Source: Fibrobacter sp. UWB10
GTDB taxonomy: Bacteria > Fibrobacterota > Fibrobacteria > Fibrobacterales > Fibrobacteraceae
Assembly: GCF_900182935.1 (NCBI RefSeq)
Contig: NZ_FXUE01000001.1
Location: forward strand, 248,001-312,000
Length of the DNA: 64,000 bases
Direction of reading: 5' to 3'
Both the position numbers and the translations under genes were made by a program. The notes beneath the pieces are model-generated. The model was not told the DNA's origin, did no database searches, and saw only the letters and a program-made list of their open reading frames with translations. Positions 51,064 to 60,315 of this stretch are shown piece by piece (the stretch's first letter is position 1; every line of letters starts with the position of its first letter).

Positions 51064-52830
51064 ATGTCTCAAAATCTCAAATTCGGTACCGCTGAAGATC
51101 TCGCTGAAATCCTCGCCGCTCAGGGCGAATGCAGCCCCGACTTCCGTAAGCAGAACGCTGACGTTTACGCCGGCATGGATTGCCTCGAACAGGGCAAGCT
51201 CGTCACTGGTAAGATTAGCCAGGTGAACGACCAGGAAGTCTTGATCGACGTGAACTACAAGTCCGAAGGTGTCATTGACCGTGCTGAATTCAAGGACACG
51301 GACTCCCTCGAAATCGGTTCCGAAATCGAAGTGTTTGTCGAAAAGCTCGAAGATGAAGACGGTCGTCTCATCTTGTCGAAGCAGAAGGCCGACTTCGTGC
51401 GCGTGTGGGATCGCATCCACGCTGCATTCGAAAACAACGAAGTCGTGCGCGGTACGCTCACGAAGCGTATCAAGGGCGGTGTGGTTGTCGACCTGTTCGG
51501 CATCGACGCCTTCCTCCCGGGTTCCCAGATCGACCTCCGTCAGATCCCGGACATCAACGCCCTCATCGGTCAGGATTTCGACCTCAAGGTTATCAAGGTC
51601 AACAAGGCTCGCCGCAACATCGTCGTTTCTCGCCGTGTTGTTCTCGAAGAAGAACGCAACAAGCAGCGTGGCGACGTTCTCGAAACTCTCGAGAAGGGTC
51701 AGGTCCGCAAGGGTATCGTCAAGAACATCACCGACTTCGGTGCATTCATTGACCTCGGCGGCGTAGACGGCCTCCTCCACATCACCGACATGAGCTACAA
51801 GCGCATCAACCACCCGACCGAATTGCTCCAGCTCGGCCAGGAAGTCGAAGTTATGGTTCTCGACTTCAACGACAAGAAGGAACGTATCTCTCTCGGCATG
51901 AAGCAGCTTAAGCCGCATCCGTGGAAGGATATCGCCGAACGTTATCCGGAAGGCGCTATCGTTAAGGGTAAGGTTGTTTCCATTACCGATTACGGTGCAT
52001 TCGTTGAACTGGATAGCGGCGTCGAAGGCCTCATCCACGTTTCCGAAATGTCCTGGACTCAGCATGTCAAGCACCCGTCCAAGATCCTCACCGTTGGTCA
52101 GGAAGTTGAAGCTGTCGTGCTCAAGGTTGAAGAAGATGCAGAACGCATCTCTCTCGGCATGAAGCAGCTCGAATCTGATCCGTGGGATTCTATCGAAACC
52201 GAACTTCCGCCGGGTGCCCGCGTGGTTGGTGAAATCCGCAACATCGCTTCCTTCGGCGCATTCGTCGAAATCAAGGAAGGTGTTGATGGCCTCATCCACG
52301 TTTCCGACATGTCCTGGACCAAGAAGATTACTCACCCGAACGAAATGGTCAAGAAGGGCGACAAGGTTGAATGCGTCGTGCTCGCTGTCGATAAGGAAAA
52401 GCGTCGTATTTCCCTCTCCATGAAGCACCTCACCGAAGATCCGTGGGATACCATTGATTCCACCTACCCGGTGAACAGCGAAGTGAAGGGCAAGATCGTT
52501 CGCATGCTCGACCGCGGCGTCGTGGTTGAACTCGCTGACGGTATCGAAGGCTTCATCCCGGTTTCCAAGCTCACCGCTGAATACATCAAGGTTCCGGCCG
52601 ATGCATTCAAGGTTGGCGACGAAGTTCCGGCTGTCGTGACCGAAATCGATCAGAACAATCGTAAGATCTTCCTCTCTGTGGTTGACTACTTCAAGAACCG
52701 TGAATCCGCTGAGCTCAAGGCTTGGATGGACTCTCACAAGCCGGGCGAATCTGGCACCACCATCGGTGAAGCTACCGCCCCGAAGAAGAAGAGCTCCAAG
52801 AAGAAGGCTGACGCTGAAGCCGAAGCTTAA
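51064..52830 (+). CDS. rpsA: 30S ribosomal protein S1
   Basis: The 588-residue protein has six S1 repeats. The first two bind the ribosome; the later four bind RNA and share GLIHVSEMSW and RISLGMKQL type motifs (VDGLLHITDMSYKRI, VEGLIHVSEMSW, VDGLIHVSDMSW). The C-terminal tail is Lys/Ala-rich. S1 brings mRNAs to the 30S subunit. In this genome many start codons have no Shine-Dalgarno site, so its role may be large. Codon use is strongly biased. It forms a unit with cmk and ends at a strong terminator. Confidence 0.96.
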   Translation: MSQNLKFGTAEDLAEILAAQGECSPDFRKQNADVYAGMDCLEQGKLVTGKISQVNDQEVLIDVNYKSEGVIDRAEFKDTDSLEIGSEIEVFVEKLEDEDGRLILSKQKADFVRVWDRIHAAFENNEVVRGTLTKRIKGGVVVDLFGIDAFLPGSQIDLRQIPDINALIGQDFDLKVIKVNKARRNIVVSRRVVLEEERNKQRGDVLETLEKGQVRKGIVKNITDFGAFIDLGGVDGLLHITDMSYKRINHPTELLQLGQEVEVMVLDFNDKKERISLGMKQLKPHPWKDIAERYPEGAIVKGKVVSITDYGAFVELDSGVEGLIHVSEMSWTQHVKHPSKILTVGQEVEAVVLKVEEDAERISLGMKQLESDPWDSIETELPPGARVVGEIRNIASFGAFVEIKEGVDGLIHVSDMSWTKKITHPNEMVKKGDKVECVVLAVDKEKRRISLSMKHLTEDPWDTIDSTYPVNSEVKGKIVRMLDRGVVVELADGIEGFIPVSKLTAEYIKVPADAFKVGDEVPAVVTEIDQNNRKIFLSVVDYFKNRESAELKAWMDSHKPGESGTTIGEATAPKKKSSKKKADAEAEA

Positions 52831-52861
52831 TTAGCTTCTTCAAAAGCACAAAGCTTTAAGG

Positions 52862-52894
52862 AATCCCGCGGGTAACCGTGGGATTTCTTTTTTC
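52862..52894 (+). terminator. rpsA terminator
   Basis: AATCCCGCGG and CCGTGGGATT pair (one G-U) around GTAA, followed by TTCTTTTTTC. The TATCTT box of the next gene lies 12 bases beyond. Confidence 0.85.
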
Positions 52895-52905
52895 ATCAAT
52901 CTTTC

Positions 52906-52911
52906 TATCTT
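52906..52911 (+). promoter_or_regulatory. promoter box of the secreted cassette, leaderless
   Basis: TATCTT ends 7 bases before the ATG at 52919, in TTTCTATCTTG. Initiation would fall at about the start codon. Confidence 0.5.
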
Positions 52912-52918
52912 GTTTTTT

Positions 52919-54109
52919 ATGAGATGTTTGTTACAGCGTAGTCTGATAGCCCTGTTTTTTGTTTTCTCTACCGTTTCTTTTGGCGCAGACGTTAAAGTTT
53001 TACCATTGAACGCTCCGAACTTGCCCAATGAGAAATTGTATGCAACAATAACGACCCAGGTATTGAATGCAGTCCAAGAAACTGGAAACAGATCGGTAGA
53101 GAATGCCGACTATGCTTTGCGAGTTACTGTGCTGAACCCCAAAGGATTCCTGATGGTAGGGGCCGAAGTAAGAGGCGTAAACTCCTTTTATAAAAAGGAG
53201 AGTGTCAACGTAAGCAATGTATCCATGTTGAACGACGGTCTCAGACAAATTATTGGAGCAGTGTTAAAAGACATTCCAACAGCATCTGATGTTGATGAAG
53301 AGAGTGAAGTTCCTAGTATGGAGCCTTTGGTAAAGGTGGACACCGTAACAAAGAGGGATACCATCACCAGAGTAGACACTATCGTAAAGGTTGATACGAT
53401 TGCGAAAATCGATACTATTATCAAGGTTGAAACCATTACAGTTGTGGACACCATTGAAAGAGATGAAGCCAATCTAGTGAAAAAATCTAAGCATTACATT
53501 ATGGTTGGTTTTTCATTTGCGAATCTTTTCTTTTTACGTGAATACACAGAGCACTATTTGACAGCTTCACGAAGTTACAACAGCAATTATAATAGAAGAT
53601 ATGACATTTACAACACCGAAAAAATTTATACCACCGAAGAACAGGAACGCAGCAACCAACTCAATTTGGGTTATGCATACGAAACTCCGATAAACACAAG
53701 ATTGTCTAGAGTGTATTCTGCCGACTTTGGTTTTAACAATACGGATTGGTTCCTTGGTTTTGCGGGCAACTTAAAATTTGATTTGATAAAAAAACATCCC
53801 CTAAGAAAATGGAACCTGTTTATTCAAGGTGGGCTTGGCCCCGTCTTTGCTTATATAGGCACCTTTACTGCTGATAGCTGGGATAATGTTGACGCAAGCA
53901 ATGCGATTAAAAGTTTGGGCCACGAAATAGAAGCATCTTTTCATTTAGGGGCAATCTCTAACATTGCTTTAGGATTTGATTACAACATTAAGGGAAAATC
54001 GAAACTGGAATTTGCCGTAAGAATTGAGCAGGCTTGGATGGATTTTTTGGATAAGTTGAGTGGCAACAGAATGTTTGCCATAACCCCTTACGTAGCCTAT
54101 GGATTCTAG
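52919..54109 (+). CDS. secreted protein with DTI repeats and beta-barrel-like end
   Basis: The 396-residue protein has a signal peptide (about 1-22, ending VSFGAD). A small N-terminal domain (DVKVLPLNAPNLPNEKLYAT onward) is followed by a repetitive linker (about 138-180) made of six or seven VDTI/xK heptad-like units. The C-terminal region is rich in aromatic strands (HYIMVGFSFANLFFL, KWNLFIQGGLGPVFAYIG) and ends YVAYGF, typical of a barrel. The family is not recognised. The GC content is lower than in nearby housekeeping genes. It is followed after 3 bases by a Ser-rich lipoprotein gene. Confidence 0.7.
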   Translation: MRCLLQRSLIALFFVFSTVSFGADVKVLPLNAPNLPNEKLYATITTQVLNAVQETGNRSVENADYALRVTVLNPKGFLMVGAEVRGVNSFYKKESVNVSNVSMLNDGLRQIIGAVLKDIPTASDVDEESEVPSMEPLVKVDTVTKRDTITRVDTIVKVDTIAKIDTIIKVETITVVDTIERDEANLVKKSKHYIMVGFSFANLFFLREYTEHYLTASRSYNSNYNRRYDIYNTEKIYTTEEQERSNQLNLGYAYETPINTRLSRVYSADFGFNNTDWFLGFAGNLKFDLIKKHPLRKWNLFIQGGLGPVFAYIGTFTADSWDNVDASNAIKSLGHEIEASFHLGAISNIALGFDYNIKGKSKLEFAVRIEQAWMDFLDKLSGNRMFAITPYVAYGF

Positions 54110-54112
54110 AAC

Positions 54113-54811
54113 ATGAAGCTGCTGTTTGGATTGTTGTTTGGATTGTGCCTATATGGTTGTGGTGATATAGAATCACCCCAATCCGTAAGCAAGTATATTG
54201 AAACCGTTGATGCTAACGGCGAAGTGTCTACAATTGAATCTTCTTCCAGTTCGCTCCGAATAGAAAGTTCATCTAGTAGTGTTTGGTGGTATTACTCTTC
54301 TTCAAGTTATTCTTCGCATTATTCGTCATCTTCTTATTTTTCTTCATCCTCTTATTCCTCCTCATCTTCAGCCAAGTCCGCCTATCTTTCTGAAGAAAAG
54401 CAGATGGAACTGACTCTTACCTACTACCTCCAGCTGAAATCCTATGAAGGAACATCAAGCAAAATAGACGGTGACCCCATCATCTATTTTAATGTAATTG
54501 CAATCGACTCCACAGGTGACACCCTAACGACTATAAAGACATCGAAGATTTTCAACAGCAAGTCGGACAAGACAAATATTTCTACGTGGAGCGGGGATTC
54601 CAGCGTGGTTTTGACCATGCCTTACAACACTTACACCATTTCAGTATGTCCGATTGTTTATGACTACGATCCGCTTTCAAATGACAAAATGTCGTCGGGT
54701 TATTGCTATATTCGTCAACGAGTCGGCTTGTTGGAATCAAGAGATAAGGTTTATCAGGAAGACAGCTACGCCACCTATTATGAACTAGAGTGGTACTGGA
54801 ATTTATATTGA
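54113..54811 (+). CDS. Ser/Tyr-rich surface lipoprotein
   Basis: The 232-residue protein has a lipobox (LCLYGCGD, Cys16). A long linker of SSSS, SSSY and HYSSSS blocks (about 41-88) leads to a C-terminal beta-sandwich-like domain (MELTLTYYLQL, then VLTMPYNTYTISVCPIVYDY). The linker is of the type seen on Fibrobacter surface proteins. The function is unknown. It sits between the barrel-like protein and a second small lipoprotein, and the three are probably one transcript. Confidence 0.72.
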   Translation: MKLLFGLLFGLCLYGCGDIESPQSVSKYIETVDANGEVSTIESSSSSLRIESSSSSVWWYYSSSSYSSHYSSSSYFSSSSYSSSSSAKSAYLSEEKQMELTLTYYLQLKSYEGTSSKIDGDPIIYFNVIAIDSTGDTLTTIKTSKIFNSKSDKTNISTWSGDSSVVLTMPYNTYTISVCPIVYDYDPLSNDKMSSGYCYIRQRVGLLESRDKVYQEDSYATYYELEWYWNLY

Positions 54812-54819
54812 GAGGTAAT

Positions 54820-55233
54820 ATGAAAAAATTACTTTTATTGCTTGTTTTGGCAATCCTGTCTGCATGCACGACCCAGAAGGAATCGTTTCACACATACAAC
54901 GAGTTTCAAACAAACGTAGTTCTATCAGAAGCAAATTTTGTTGTTGTAAGAAATGTTGAAGCCAAGGCATCCCGTTGTTTTAATAGTGGGATTGCTCGAA
55001 ACCAAGCCATTGAAGAATTATTTAAAGTGGCTGATTTGAAAGGCTCTCAAACAATCGCCAACATTACCGTATCTCAGTCAGAAGGTACTTTCTGCGATAA
55101 GGCCAAGGCATTTGGAACGGTGATTGAATTCGTTGAACCCGGCAAAGGGAAAAAGACAAATTCCCAAGCAAACACAAATAATGGGGACTCCGCTTGCGAC
55201 AAGGCTGTATGGGGCGATGCTTGCGGTGACTAA
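54820..55233 (+). CDS. small lipoprotein, DUF6567-like
   Basis: The 137-residue protein has a lipobox (ILSACTTQ). A single domain follows with NVVLSEANFVVVRNVEAKAS and IARNQAIEELFKVADLKGSQTIANITV, a pattern I associate tentatively with the DUF6567 group of small lipoproteins. It ends in a Gly/Asn/Lys tail with two Cys. AGAGG precedes the ATG; longer starts would overlap the upstream gene. It ends the secreted cassette; coaBC starts 18 bases later with its own promoter. Confidence 0.7.
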   Translation: MKKLLLLLVLAILSACTTQKESFHTYNEFQTNVVLSEANFVVVRNVEAKASRCFNSGIARNQAIEELFKVADLKGSQTIANITVSQSEGTFCDKAKAFGTVIEFVEPGKGKKTNSQANTNNGDSACDKAVWGDACGD

Positions 55234-55238
55234 TTTTC

Positions 55239-55244
55239 TATCTT
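55239..55244 (+). promoter_or_regulatory. promoter box of coaBC, leaderless
   Basis: TATCTT in TTTTCTATCTTGC starts 5 bases after the upstream stop and ends 7 bases before the ATG at 55252. Confidence 0.5.
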
Positions 55245-55251
55245 GCATCCT

Positions 55252-56568
55252 ATGAACCTCGCTGGAAAGAAAATCTTGCTCGGAGTCTCGGGCGGCATTG
55301 CCGTATACAAGAGCTGCGAGCTGTTGCGCCTGTTGCAGAAGAAGGGCGCCGAAGTACGCGTATGCATGACCGATGCGGCCACAGAATTCGTAGCGCCGCT
55401 GACTTTTGCAAGCCTGAGTAAATGTCCTGTGTACCTGAAGAACGGAGCCGTCGAGGCGCGTCCCTTCCAGCATATTGATTTTCCGCGCTGGGCAGACCTC
55501 TATTTGGTGGTGCCCGCGACCGCGAACGTCATCGGGAAATTCGCCTGCGGTATCGCCGACGATCCGGTGAGCCTTTGCTTTATGAGCTGCACGTGTCCGC
55601 GCGTAATTGCGCCCGCGATGAATGTGGCAATGTACAACTCCTCCGCCGTAAAACGCAACCTCGAGATTTTGCGCGGCTTTGAAGACACGACCGTGCTTGA
55701 ATCGCCTGCAGGGGAACTCGCCTGTGGTGAAATCGGACAAGGTCGCCTGATGGAACCGGCTGAAATTGTGAAGTATTTAGAAGGGGCAAGTCTGCCCCTC
55801 GCTGCATCCGCATGCGCGTCTTCCGCTACCCCATCTCCTAGGGGCACGGCCCCTAAAACCCCCGCGCCAGCATGTCCTGTTGCACAAGATGTCCCGCCGA
55901 CACAAGATGCAAGCCTTCCTGGCTACGGCAAGAAGGTTCTCTTGACTGCAGGCCGTACCGAAGAAGCAATCGACCCGGTACGCTATATCAGCAATCGCAG
56001 TAGCGGCAAGACCGCTGTGGCACTCGCCTCGGTATTCTACGCCAACGGTTTTGAAGTCGAAGTTGTCGCAGGCCCGATGGAAGCGAAGTTCCCGGGCGGA
56101 GTGAAAGTGACTCGAGTGACAAGCGCCCGCGACATGCACGACGCAGTCCTTGAACGAATGAAGAGTGCAAGCGCGCTCGTTCACTGCGCCGCCGTTGCCG
56201 ACTATCGCCCGAAAGTGGCCGCCACCGAAAAGATTAAGGATAGCCGCAGTCAGCTGATTCTGGAGCTGGAACCGAACCCGAATATTTTGCGAGACAGCGT
56301 CGCCCAAAAACGCGACGACCAAGTGATTGTCGGATTCGCACTTGAAACCGATCACTTCGAAGAACACGCCGCCGAAAAGCTTGCAAAGAGCGGCGCCGAC
56401 GCATTGCTTTTGAACGCCCCTGTAGCCGCCGACTCTGGCTTTGGCCGCGACTGCGTGCGGTTCGCCTTGGTGGAAAAGGGCAAGCCCGTTCCACAGCTCG
56501 CCATGGGCGAGAAGGTCGATTTGGCCGAGACGATTTTGAACTTTTGCCTGGAGCGCCTGAATGGCTGA
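55252..56568 (+). CDS. coaBC: bifunctional CoaBC with repeat-derived linker
   Basis: The 438-residue protein joins 4'-phosphopantothenate to cysteine (CoaB, C-terminal) and decarboxylates the product (CoaC, N-terminal) in CoA synthesis. CoaC motifs are LLGVSGGIAVYKS, the His in FQHIDFPRWAD, APAMNVAMYNS and PAGELACGEIGQGRL. CoaB starts at KKVLLTAGRTEEAIDPVRYISNRSSGK. Between them, residues about 177-206 are encoded by an inverted copy of the hairpin element at 4176-4263; about fifteen more linker residues follow. Both catalytic domains look intact, so the insert is probably tolerated. The ATG at 55252 is used; TTG at 55243 is unlikely. The UDG-like gene overlaps its end by 8 bases. Confidence 0.93.
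   Translation: MNLAGKKILLGVSGGIAVYKSCELLRLLQKKGAEVRVCMTDAATEFVAPLTFASLSKCPVYLKNGAVEARPFQHIDFPRWADLYLVVPATANVIGKFACGIADDPVSLCFMSCTCPRVIAPAMNVAMYNSSAVKRNLEILRGFEDTTVLESPAGELACGEIGQGRLMEPAEIVKYLEGASLPLAASACASSATPSPRGTAPKTPAPACPVAQDVPPTQDASLPGYGKKVLLTAGRTEEAIDPVRYISNRSSGKTAVALASVFYANGFEVEVVAGPMEAKFPGGVKVTRVTSARDMHDAVLERMKSASALVHCAAVADYRPKVAATEKIKDSRSQLILELEPNPNILRDSVAQKRDDQVIVGFALETDHFEEHAAEKLAKSGADALLLNAPVAADSGFGRDCVRFALVEKGKPVPQLAMGEKVDLAETILNFCLERLNG
55781..55868 (-). repeat. dispersed two-hairpin element, copy 2, inside coaBC
   Basis: On the minus strand the order is GGGGTTTTAGGGGC, GCCCCTAGG, the core GGGGTAGCGGAAGAC (55818-55832), GATGCAGCGAGGGGCA and a closing GGGGCA/TGCCCC hairpin (55783-55797 region). 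The order is the same as in copy 1 at 4176-4263, with a 15-base identical core. It is read in frame on the plus strand as LPLAASACASSATPSPRG and so on. Confidence 0.75.
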
Positions 56569-57524: not shown

Positions 57525-58160
57525 ATGACCACACCGAATCCGAACACGGAGCATCCGATCGCGGGCTACGACAAGGAAATCTACGTCAAGCCTACCATCA
57601 AAAACCCGAATATTATTGTCGGGGACTTCACCTATATCGCAGATTCGGAGTTCGAAAGCCATGTGACGCACCACTATGACTTTATCGGCGACAAACTGAT
57701 TATCGGAAAGTTCTGCCAGATTGCCGCCGGCGTAGAATTCGTCATGAACGGCGCCAACCACCAGATGAATGCGGTTTCGACATTCCCGTTCTATACGCTG
57801 GAAGGCTGGAAAATGAATCCGCCCGCTAAAAGCGACATGCCATTCAAGGGCGACACCGTCATCGGAAACGATGTGTGGATTGGTCAAAACGCCACCATCT
57901 TGCCGGGCGTGCATATCGGTGACGGCGCCATCATCGGCGCGAACAGCGTCGTCGGCAGCGACGTAGAGCCTTATACGATTGTCGTCGGCAATCCCGCCGA
58001 AGTAATCCGCTATCGTTTTGATGAAGAACTGACAGAACTCCTGCTCAAATTCAAGTGGTGGGACAAGCCCATCGAAGAAATCAACGAATTGATTCCGATT
58101 CTTACGAGCAGCGATCTTGATAAAGTCAAAGCCGAAATCCGTCGGCTAATGAACGCTTAA
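57525..58160 (+). CDS. hexapeptide-repeat acetyltransferase, CatB/Vat-like
   Basis: The 211-residue protein has left-handed beta-helix repeats ([50 protein letters not shown]). The catalytic His79 in [15 protein letters not shown] and the WIG and [11 protein letters not shown] motifs are typical of xenobiotic acetyltransferases acting on chloramphenicol or streptogramin A. Members occur in many chromosomes without conferring resistance, so the true acceptor is uncertain. It is last in the coaBC unit. Confidence 0.9.
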
Positions 58161-58216
58161 AGCTTAATTCTTTTTGACAAAAAAACTGTACTTTCCCCCA
58201 AAAAAAAGTGAGAAAA

Positions 58217-58244
58217 TTAAAAAACCAGCCCGAGATGAGGCTGG
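58217..58244 (-). terminator. terminator of the paralogous-domain lipoprotein gene
   Basis: On the minus strand CCAGCC-TCATCTCG-GGCTGG is followed by TTTTTTAATTTT. Confidence 0.8.
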
Positions 58245-58270
58245 CAATATACATTTGATTGTTTTTTTTA

Positions 58271-59200
58271 CTAATCGAAATCTTCATCAGAAATGTGTTT
58301 TACACAACGAACACTAAATCCATAAAATCTACTATCACTTACTTCGTATGCAGCATCACTACTACCGTCCATCCAAACGCCAAAAGGACCACTACCATCA
58401 TCTGAGAGTCCCCAAAACCTAGTTGTTTTTCCTACACCCCCATAACCACCAATAGCTCCCCTAGAACCAGCCAACAAAGCGCTGAACCCAAATGCATCTA
58501 CAGCATTTGATTTCAGCATTCTTCCTGCAGACAATCTTCCGCCAACAGCATCAAACAACACATAAAAATCATTTTTCGTTGGCAAGTTCCACCCTTCTGG
58601 GCATGCATTTCTTGCAGCATCCCAATTATACAAGCGTCCAAACTTATTACATTTTTCCAATTCATCATCATAACAATAGCTATCATCCATTTCGTAATTT
58701 AGGTTTTGAGCCATCCATTCCTGACTTTCGATAACAACAGTCCTATACTCTTTTTGATCTCTTGGATCAATCATCTTCTTAAAAATAGGGCAAAAATTGG
58801 GATCATAAGACGAGTTATTATCATAGATATAATTCAAGAGATAATTACAATAAAGTCCCTTTTGTCCAAACCCACAATAACCGACTTCAAAAGACTCCGA
58901 ATTCGTATGCAACATGAACTGAATTACAACTTTTTGCGGATTTTCGCATTGTTGTTTTCGGTCTTCTAGAGTCACAAAACTTTTTCCCGGCCATCCTTTT
59001 GCCTCAACAACTTTCACCCCTTTTTCCGTCTCGAAATAAGTCCATTCTACTTCGCCAAAGACACTTTCAATAGCCTTGCCAACGGTCGTTTGCTCATACC
59101 CTTGCAAAGTTCCATTTTTTACCATATCAATCTCCGAATTACAACCACTTATAATGGTTGCAACCCCCAAAGACATTGCGAATTTTAAAATTTTTTTCAT
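58271..59200 (-). CDS. Fibrobacter paralogous-domain lipoprotein
   Basis: The 309-residue protein has a lipobox (IISGC, Cys20). A variable N-terminal domain of about 120 residues is followed by the TIGR02145-type domain: DPRDQKEYRTVVI, EWMAQNLNY, FGRLYNWDAARNACPEGWNLP, FSALLAGSRG, FWGLSDD and SVRCVKH. It shares this domain with 12755-13870, but the N-terminal parts are unrelated. AAGGAG precedes the ATG. A perfect palindrome lies about 100 bases upstream. Lower GC than the housekeeping genes. Confidence 0.88.
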   Translation of the reverse strand: MKKILKFAMSLGVATIISGCNSEIDMVKNGTLQGYEQTTVGKAIESVFGEVEWTYFETEKGVKVVEAKGWPGKSFVTLEDRKQQCENPQKVVIQFMLHTNSESFEVGYCGFGQKGLYCNYLLNYIYDNNSSYDPNFCPIFKKMIDPRDQKEYRTVVIESQEWMAQNLNYEMDDSYCYDDELEKCNKFGRLYNWDAARNACPEGWNLPTKNDFYVLFDAVGGRLSAGRMLKSNAVDAFGFSALLAGSRGAIGGYGGVGKTTRFWGLSDDGSGPFGVWMDGSSDAAYEVSDSRFYGFSVRCVKHISDEDFD

Positions 59201-59301
59201 TTGATTTTCTCCTTAATGTTCGTGAAATAATCCACGTCATAAATGTAACCACCCCAAAAAACAAAGTCAAGTGTTTTTGTGATTTTCGTCCATTTTGGGG
59301 A

Positions 59302-59334
59302 GGATATGATATTCCAAACTGGAATATCATATCC
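59302..59334. repeat. perfect 15-bp-arm palindrome
   Basis: GGATATGATATTCCA and TGGAATATCATATCC are exact reverse complements separated by AAC. It lies between the Rpn-type gene (upstream on the minus strand) and the paralogous-domain lipoprotein gene. It is not followed by a T-run, so it is not a plain terminator; an operator or cruciform site is possible. Confidence 0.9.
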
Positions 59335-59364
59335 AATAATCGTAGATTATTTCACCCCATACAC

Positions 59365-59389
59365 AAAAAAAAGCGGTCTTTCGACCGCC
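59365..59389 (-). terminator. terminator of the Rpn-type gene
   Basis: On the minus strand GCGGTC-GAAA-GACCGC is followed by seven T. Confidence 0.85.
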
Positions 59390-59412
59390 AGTAATTTGTT
59401 TTTTAAAAGCAA

Positions 59413-60315
59413 CTAGAGTTCGCGAATTTCTTTTTCGGAAAGATTAGTAGTTTCCTTTATAATGGAAACATCGACACCCTTATCGCGCATTTTCTTCGCG
59501 ATTTCGCGAGCTACATTATATTTCAGCCGCGCTTCGTCAAAATCTTTCATCAATTCGCAACGCATATATCTTGCACTAAAATTACACAATTTTACTTCGT
59601 TTTGCAAGACCTTGAATATTGGGTCAGCGGCAAACTCACTAAAATCGGCTTCACGATTGAGTGTATCAATGGCACGGAGCCACTGAGCAATGCGACTATT
59701 GTCTCCTTCGAACTTTTCCTTCTGCTTGAGAAACTTATTCACCTCAATGAGCGTCACCGTCTGCCGTTCGAAATACACACGCTGTTCTTGATTGCGCAAC
59801 TGCACCTTATGACGATAATTCGGAGATTCCTTGAATGCGTCAAAAAACTGAAAACTGACCACATGCAAATTTTCTAAGCGCGTAAACGTTCCTGCTTTTT
59901 CCATACCGCTCGTAAGACGAGCCACATAAAGAACCAAACGGTCATTAAACAAGAAATCATTATTTTCATGCTGAACATCAATGGAGATGCGATCACGTGG
60001 AATATTTTCTCCACGGTCGTTAGTCAGTAGCAAATCGGGTTCAACACTGCGGTAACCCAATTCGCCAGGAATATAGGGATTTACAAGCTTAGGATTCGCT
60101 ATACGGTCCGAACCAACAAGATTAAGGGCTGCATTAATAAGATCCGTCGTGAGCATCAGATTTTTCTCGTTTGCAAGAATCTTCTTGATGCATCCGTCGT
60201 TATAGAAATAGACATTCCTGTGTTCGTATTCCTTGATAATTGCGTCGAGATCCAATCCTCTTTCGTCGGCAGTTTTAAGTTTCCGCTGAAATTCAGCAAA
60301 TTCTTCTCTAGTCAT
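59413..60315 (-). CDS. Rpn-family PD-(D/E)XK nuclease / transposase-like protein
   Basis: The 300-residue protein has the YfkN-free, Rpn-like core: a mixed N-terminal region, VEPDLLLTNDRGENIPRDRISIDVQHENN with the conserved Asp and the IDVQ (in place of IExQ) active-site strand, then a helix with RLVLYVARLTSG. The C-terminus is helical with repeated KKMRDKGVDVSIIKETTNLSEKEIREL, as in the recombination-promoting nuclease/PDDEXK_2 group. Members cut DNA and raise RecA-independent recombination in E. coli. No terminal inverted repeats define it as a transposon here. It is a single gene with its own terminator. Confidence 0.88.
   Translation of the reverse strand: MTREEFAEFQRKLKTADERGLDLDAIIKEYEHRNVYFYNDGCIKKILANEKNLMLTTDLINAALNLVGSDRIANPKLVNPYIPGELGYRSVEPDLLLTNDRGENIPRDRISIDVQHENNDFLFNDRLVLYVARLTSGMEKAGTFTRLENLHVVSFQFFDAFKESPNYRHKVQLRNQEQRVYFERQTVTLIEVNKFLKQKEKFEGDNSRIAQWLRAIDTLNREADFSEFAADPIFKVLQNEVKLCNFSARYMRCELMKDFDEARLKYNVAREIAKKMRDKGVDVSIIKETTNLSEKEIREL

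Follow-up and report, generated by a model that had tools for sequence, protein, structure and literature searches.

A three-gene secreted cassette in a variable rpsA-coaBC gap of Fibrobacter encodes a stalked lipoprotein with a predicted C2 fold

Organisation of the locus

The DNA analysed here, referred to as the window, is a 64,000-nucleotide stretch of the Fibrobacter sp. UWB10 genome (assembly GCF_900182935.1, contig NZ_FXUE01000001.1, positions 248,001 to 312,000), and our subject is a set of three closely packed forward-strand genes within it, which we call the trio. They lie between rpsA, which ends at position 52830, and coaBC, whose ATG is at 55252. Gene 1 (52919-54109) encodes a protein of 396 residues (P1), gene 2 (54113-54811) a lipoprotein of 232 residues (P2) and gene 3 (54820-55233) a small lipoprotein of 137 residues (P3) that matches the Pfam family DUF6567; genes 1 and 2 are separated by 3 bases and genes 2 and 3 by 8. 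The reading frames, their gaps and their flanking genes agree with an earlier note made from the DNA sequence alone, which had also described the three products as secreted. Judged by eye this is so, with an ordinary signal peptide on P1 and the lipoboxes LYGC and LSAC on P2 and P3, respectively.

A terminator-like hairpin followed by a run of T (52862..52893, forward strand; recognised by reading the sequence) closes rpsA and precedes the cassette, and an equivalent hairpin follows rpsA in both the empty and the filled sites of relatives whose junctions were compared. Directly before the ATG of gene 1, sequence comparison picked out a TATCTTG box (52906..52918, forward strand). A box of this type also stands ahead of coaBC, at 55239 and right after gene 3, and likewise in the relatives compared. 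The box before gene 1 looks like a promoter, one that would give a leaderless message. The wider pattern CTA[AT]NTT, 5-9 bases, ATG occurs 12 times in the window, the positions at 52906 and 55239 included, whereas crudely shuffling two-base blocks 30 times gave 4.5 (maximum 8); seven of the 12 places open a reading frame of at least 100 amino acids, and this pattern, too, resembles a promoter box for leaderless transcripts.

The trio differs in composition from its housekeeping flanks, as had been noted before. The guanine-plus-cytosine (GC) fraction of genes 1, 2 and 3 is 0.398, 0.406 and 0.418, compared with 0.54-0.58 in rpsA and coaBC, and at third codon positions it is 0.41, 0.44 and 0.39, compared with 0.68 and 0.64. 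The earlier note took this to suggest transfer. However, genes of this class are also GC-poor elsewhere, if more mildly (means of 0.450 and 0.421, flanks 0.482), so that low GC is partly a trait of the class and, even with the trio at the extreme, is weak evidence for transfer. Searches with the PADLOC models matched none of the three proteins at expectation values (E) up to 0.1, and we rejected an anti-phage defence system. Elsewhere in the window, positions 58001-60000 have a GC fraction of 0.38-0.40 and the strongest GC skew of the whole stretch (-0.28 and -0.21).

Distribution of the trio and contents of the rpsA-coaBC gap

The complete trio is present in three of 167 genomes of the phylum, namely that of the window and two designated G119 and G120, and in each it has the same order and place, rpsA-trio-coaBC. 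That it should be found intact and ordered in three of the 167 is more than chance. A genome labelled as the same species (G136) lacks the trio and has 68 bp between rpsA and coaBC, and in a near relative whose coaBC is 98% identical (G063) the gap is 85 bases; the trio is thus accessory and polymorphic within a species, in keeping with the lineage-specific character proposed for it. Protein identity between carriers is approximately 66-83% for the trio and 76-79% for coaBC in the same genomes, and from this similarity we conclude that the three copies do not reflect very recent mutual exchange.

Across the genus the rpsA-coaBC gap (52830-55252 in the window; loci L046, L047 and L066-L155 in relatives) is a slot with variable cargo. 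Eighty genus genomes were searched, 72 gave a coaBC match and 70 were examined, G074 and G128 being omitted as their contigs end at the match; the counts refer to the 61 of these 70 in which rpsA lies upstream, the other nine, with no rpsA in the stretch read, being excluded. The slot is empty or short in 20, holds one kind of acyltransferase-like gene in 20 and a second kind in seven, a gene for a collagen-like lipoprotein in six, the trio in three and other genes in five. These classes were set by short motifs, and Pfam was run on one representative of each of three: both acyltransferase representatives match Acyl_transf_3 (E 6e-22 and 1e-32), while the collagen-like one matches Fib_succ_major and reaches 27.0 bits with the Collagen model, just below its cut-off of 27.2.

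On a coaBC tree (31 rows, 27 of them labelled) at least 17 changes of cargo are needed and the three trios fall at different places; as only 11 of its 28 branches are strongly supported and coaBC may itself recombine, we use this tree solely to say that cargo changes frequently. No repeats or integrase were seen at the slot edges in the junctions compared, which were not searched systematically. The simplest reading is that cargo would be exchanged by recombination in the conserved flanks.

Gene 2 encodes a stalked lipoprotein with a predicted C2 fold

P2 has its lipobox cysteine at position 16, followed by a serine-rich stretch, as the earlier note had described, which also contains many tyrosines and lies ahead of the C-terminal domain. 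From the sequence we read it as a stalk of about residues 43-87 (54239..54373, forward strand). Similar serine-rich stalks occur in many relatives. A lipobox-like motif is present in 38 of 41 family members, and its cysteine is invariant in a 15-row alignment (A5); these 41 distinct sequences are those from the loci collected rather than from all 74 places at which the family occurs in the phylum genomes.

Neither P1 nor P2 belongs to a family with a significant match in Pfam or NCBIfam, so the description of the products as unrecognised stood for genes 1 and 2 and failed for gene 3. A C2 domain was first suspected in P2 from the pattern GDPxIxF ... VxDxDxxxxD. AlphaFold, given 15 sequences (the window copy and loci from a scan of species genomes, described below), modelled residues 88-232 with a mean predicted local distance difference test score (pLDDT) of 89.2 and a predicted template-modelling score of 0.85. 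Searched against solved structures with Foldseek, the model found C2 domains on top, led by that of cPLA2 (1rlw; E 8.8e-6, TM-score on the target 0.66), and each of its 28 matches with E no higher than 0.001 is a protein that we recognise as C2-bearing. With VIA-align the top 50 rows had Z from 11.5 to 9.9, the best superposing 120-122 residues at a root-mean-square deviation of 3.0; models lacking a clear match typically have a best Z of 7-8, and a shared fold shows no function. By our recognition 49 of those 50 rows are C2-bearing proteins, and the remaining one, a ciliary chain (9nw3), is undecided. Together with conservation, these results define residues 91-232 (54383..54808, forward strand) as a domain predicted to adopt the eight-stranded beta-sandwich of C2. 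When the sequences of solved structures were searched with the C2 profile of P2, the sole matches were four designed trefoil proteins, the best of which had E 0.001 but no individual stretch that passed; we take them as chance.

The model places a putative calcium site in three predicted loops, formed by Glu112, Asp121, Asn155, Asp184, Asp186 and Asp191; residue numbers were counted by hand, and four of the six or their neighbours are invariant in the 15-row alignment. Among the 41 family members the six positions (profile columns 22, 31, 61, 90, 92 and 97) are acidic or asparagine in 37, 41, 41, 41, 41 and 40; more narrowly, they carry Asp/Glu in 37, Asp/Glu in 39, Asp/Asn in 41, Asp/Glu in 41, Asp/Asn in 41 and Asp/Glu in 39, and 20 members have Asp at all six. 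The loop acids rank among the most conserved columns of the family. Known calcium-binding C2 domains served as the comparison for this ligand pattern, and P2 likewise appears, from its sequence, to present acidic ligands in three loops at the top of the domain. Two cysteines, Cys179 and Cys198, bracket the third loop; both are present in 35 of the 41 sequences and both absent in six, never one without the other, as expected for a disulfide outside the cytoplasm.

The lipoprotein family and its usual partner

Relatives of P2 are far more widespread than the trio. They were found in 52 of the 167 phylum genomes by single-sequence search and in 58 by profile, in five of 40 genera, and genes 1 and 3 are missing from 55 of the 58. 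A scan of 84,980 species genomes with the P2 family gave 14 loci, 12 titled Fibrobacter (including F. intestinalis ATCC 43854), one Fibrobacteraceae and one Bacteroidales. The last (L159, JAGCNN010000173.1) is a 3.8-kb contig with a full, very Fibrobacter-like pair of barrel and C2-lipoprotein genes, which points either to transfer or to mis-binning. When viral contigs were scanned, P1 gave 58 pattern-matching stretches and the C2 family 44, none encoding a relative, and a phage or viral origin was set aside.

A long secreted reading frame ends just upstream of the P2 relative in 13 of the 14 loci. In the phylum genomes a profile of this usual partner, a putative outer-membrane barrel, matches within 1 kb upstream on the same strand at 57 of the 74 C2-family places and, conversely, 58 of 70 barrel matches stand upstream of such a place (one barrel in G119 counted as two matches). 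Of the 41 distinct sequences, 34 come from loci with the barrel profile alongside. The seven without it comprise the three trio copies, an orphan type represented twice (L042 and L165), L193, which lies where its contig ends, and L197, whose neighbours are different. Eight of 12 usual partners show strand alternation above shuffles at the 5% level, and weak Pfam matches were obtained to OMP_b-brl for one of 13 (best E 0.0029) and to OMP_b-brl_2 for two of 13. Most of the usual partners (L156-L169) carry one or two N-terminal cysteine-rich modules, CxxLCxxC...DxxCxKxxxxCxC, before the barrel. One locus (L063, G077:C147) has two tandem partner-family barrel genes with a small gene between them, and a C2 lipoprotein gene after the second only.

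Besides the trio, the genome of the window carries an ordinary pair (G000:C1, about 676.8-678.6 kb), which G136 has as well. Since P2 relatives are widespread with the barrel and an ordinary pair stands in the same genome, the trio represents an additional copy, in variant form, of a widespread pair. The P2 copies of the trios form one clade within the family (SH-aLRT branch support 100), and 14 relatives are 32-45% identical to the window copy. Gene 1 occupies the usual barrel's place, 3 bases upstream of gene 2 (9-16 bases in most other pairs). Read from the sequences, the trio is a variant pair in which P1, not detectably related to the usual barrel, replaces it and a DUF6567 lipoprotein is added.

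Genes 1 and 3

P1 consists of a signal peptide, an N-terminal domain (residues 23-125; 52985..53293, forward strand), a linker made up of (V/I)DT(I/V) repeats (about residues 139-180; 53333..53458, forward strand), located by alignment, and a C-terminal domain ending in Phe (residues 189-396; 53483..54106, forward strand). The repeats noted earlier in gene 1 form this linker, which is 12 residues shorter in the window copy than in its two relatives. Full-length relatives of P1 were found in G119 and G120 only. Beyond the full-length copies of the three trio genomes and a single N-terminal-domain hit in G137, matches in the phylum lie in or around the linker, and by sequence the DT repeats are of a linker type common to many phylum proteins. 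The N-terminal domain shows a remote profile match to that of a putative outer-membrane protein (hhalign probability 79, E 1.6e-5, 70 columns), which is itself present as a match in 69 of the 80 genus genomes. A sequence search of solved structures with P1 gave no match. We also considered homology between P1 and the usual partner; profile comparison detected no relation (hhalign probability 0.1 against the barrel profile, A3), and the barrel profile does not find P1.

P3 matches DUF6567 (PF20205) with E 4.6e-12 and 46.4 bits, against a cut-off of 27, over the whole profile. The family occurs in seven of the 167 phylum genomes and, within this genus, in the three trio genomes only. Scattering of the genes in relatives had been put forward as a test of joint function, and the outcome is mixed: gene 2 is widespread without its companions, but in the genus full-length gene 1 and gene 3 are found only together with gene 2. 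A different family of small lipoprotein-like proteins, marked by C[YV]x-x-GFRGG, is encoded on the same strand near the pair in six of the 41 loci (L157, L158, L159, L187, L048 and L062), so that a small extra lipoprotein is a recurring, changeable companion.

Interpretation and alternative explanations

We read the trio as an accessory variant of a module of the Fibrobacterales that most likely serves to attach cells by their surface, or to capture a ligand, in a calcium-dependent manner and that differs between strains by swapping of cargo in the slot; we give this reading a probability of roughly 0.36. The module would consist of an outer-membrane protein followed by a lipoprotein that bears the C2-fold domain on a flexible serine-rich stalk. 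The lipoprotein would be anchored in the outer membrane and displayed outside the cell, where the C2 domain may bind calcium through its acidic loops and, once loaded, a lipid or other ligand; anionic polymers and the membranes of protozoa, vesicles or neighbouring cells are candidates. The task of the outer-membrane partner (P1 in the trio, elsewhere the usual barrel) may be to hold or position the lipoprotein, with the DUF6567 lipoprotein as a possible helper; by exchanging cargo between rpsA and coaBC, strains would vary their surface. The surface system suggested in the earlier note gains from the stalk, the predicted C2 fold and the genus-wide outer-membrane-type partner, but the trio is not one unknown thing, as the gene 2 family occurs in 58 genomes and usually has a different upstream partner, the barrel, and gene 3 belongs to a known domain family.

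Several observations weigh against this reading. In the window's P2 two of the six loop positions are Glu and Asn, and model confidence drops in two of the three proposed calcium loops (10-residue blocks at 69 and 64). The Pfam C2 model (PF00168) matches none of 15 family members at E up to 1, so that P2 counts as a C2 protein by predicted fold and not by sequence family. Fourteen of the 74 family places, besides the trio, have no barrel profile upstream, and at L197, L054 and L165 no outer-membrane gene adjoins the C2 gene in the stretch read. Nor does P1 bear out its earlier description as barrel-like: it matches no family, its strand alternation is reached by 198 of 1000 shuffles, and an AlphaFold model from the single sequence is unusable (pLDDT 31). 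Its C-terminal domain has the terminal Phe and, by eye, strands rich in glycine and aromatic residues. An outer-membrane barrel in P1 is therefore a guess from position and architecture.

The frequent one-to-one adjacency, with the outer-membrane gene first and the lipoprotein gene second, could also be that of a secretion unit in which the outer-membrane protein is a dedicated exporter of the adjoining lipoprotein, as in the Slam or type XI secretion system (T11SS), and the C2 domain is mere cargo. The outer-membrane proteins do have an N-terminal part ahead of the C-terminal domain, and T11SS cargo and exporter genes are reported to co-occur too (PMC12282271). Against this, the C-terminal domains are only about 200 amino acids, which is little for a pore that passes proteins; neither P1 (E up to 10) nor any of 13 usual partners (E up to 0.1) gave a DUF560-type match in Pfam; and P2 ends in a C2 fold, not in the eight-stranded C-terminal barrel given for T11SS cargo (PMC12282271). 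We consider an exporter unlikely.

The packing of the genes as one operon would also suit a periplasmic C2 domain acting jointly with the outer-membrane protein as a sensor or brace of the envelope, for instance by binding peptidoglycan or the inner leaflet. In many bacteria the periplasmic side is the default location of lipoproteins, and lipoprotein/porin sensor pairs such as RcsF offer a comparison. The long serine-rich stalk and the strong divergence of copies among the 14 relatives better suit an exposed protein, however, and the trio, unlike core envelope sensors, varies between genomes of one species; we think a periplasmic role improbable.

A further view is that the C2-like sandwich binds neither calcium nor lipid, whether this ability was lost or was never there, and is only a rigid surface module varying under pressure from phages or predators. 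The other cargo of the slot, acyltransferases and collagen-like lipoproteins, could change the surface too, and in 21 of the 41 sequences, among them that of the window, at least one of the six loop residues is not Asp. Those departures are mostly to Glu or Asn, though, in columns that are among the family's most conserved, and we think an inert sandwich improbable. Least probable of the alternatives in our judgement is that three secreted-protein genes without shared function sit in an insertion-tolerant gap between terminator and promoter: the gap does accept unrelated cargo across the genus and most gene 2 relatives lack genes 1 and 3, yet all three genomes retain the gene order and tight packing although the proteins are only about 66-83% identical, and in the genus the full-length companions were found only with gene 2.

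The P2 family, with its predicted C2 fold, acidic loops, stalk and recurrent partner, is a testable candidate for calcium-dependent attachment in Fibrobacter, and the rpsA-coaBC gap, as a constant chromosomal site at which surface-type genes are interchanged, is a handle on surface variation in these bacteria. The mechanism of cellulose degradation by Fibrobacter, adhesion included, is called not fully elucidated in two papers (PMC6851124; PMC4619616), and many lipoproteins and outer-membrane proteins are listed for the F. succinogenes envelope proteome (PMC6851124). We found no description of a C2 protein of Fibrobacter in the open-licence literature searched.

Comparison with known systems

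The likeness to T11SS (Slam) lies in an outer-membrane-type gene adjoining a lipoprotein gene; the present pairs differ in having no DUF560-type match, a small C-terminal domain and cargo without a C-terminal barrel. A few of the usual partners match the small barrels of OMP_b-brl and OMP_b-brl_2 weakly by profile and most show alternating strands, while P1 matches neither these families nor the usual partner. P3 is a full-length DUF6567 protein by its cover of the profile, in this genus a component of the trio only.

The closest comparison is with C2 domains, best known as a calcium-dependent membrane-attachment module of eukaryotes. The P2 domain differs from them in being bacterial, predicted to be extracytoplasmic and carried on a lipoprotein stalk, in having no significant Pfam C2 match, and in the conserved cysteine pair bracketing its third loop. 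It shares its predicted fold with the C2 domains of cPLA2, PLC-delta, dysferlin, the synaptotagmin type and the N-terminal C2 of Notch ligands, and its acidic residues likewise cluster in the loops between model strands 1-2, 3-4 and 5-6, in a strand and loop arrangement that we take to be type II (cPLA2/PLC). More broadly, and as a rather doubtful proposal, stalked calcium-binding C2 lipoproteins with dedicated outer-membrane partners may form a bacterial surface system that binds membranes or ligands outside the cell, in which the partner can be replaced and strain-specific copies are exchanged through a fixed slot, and which would be a prokaryotic counterpart of the eukaryotic C2 attachment module.

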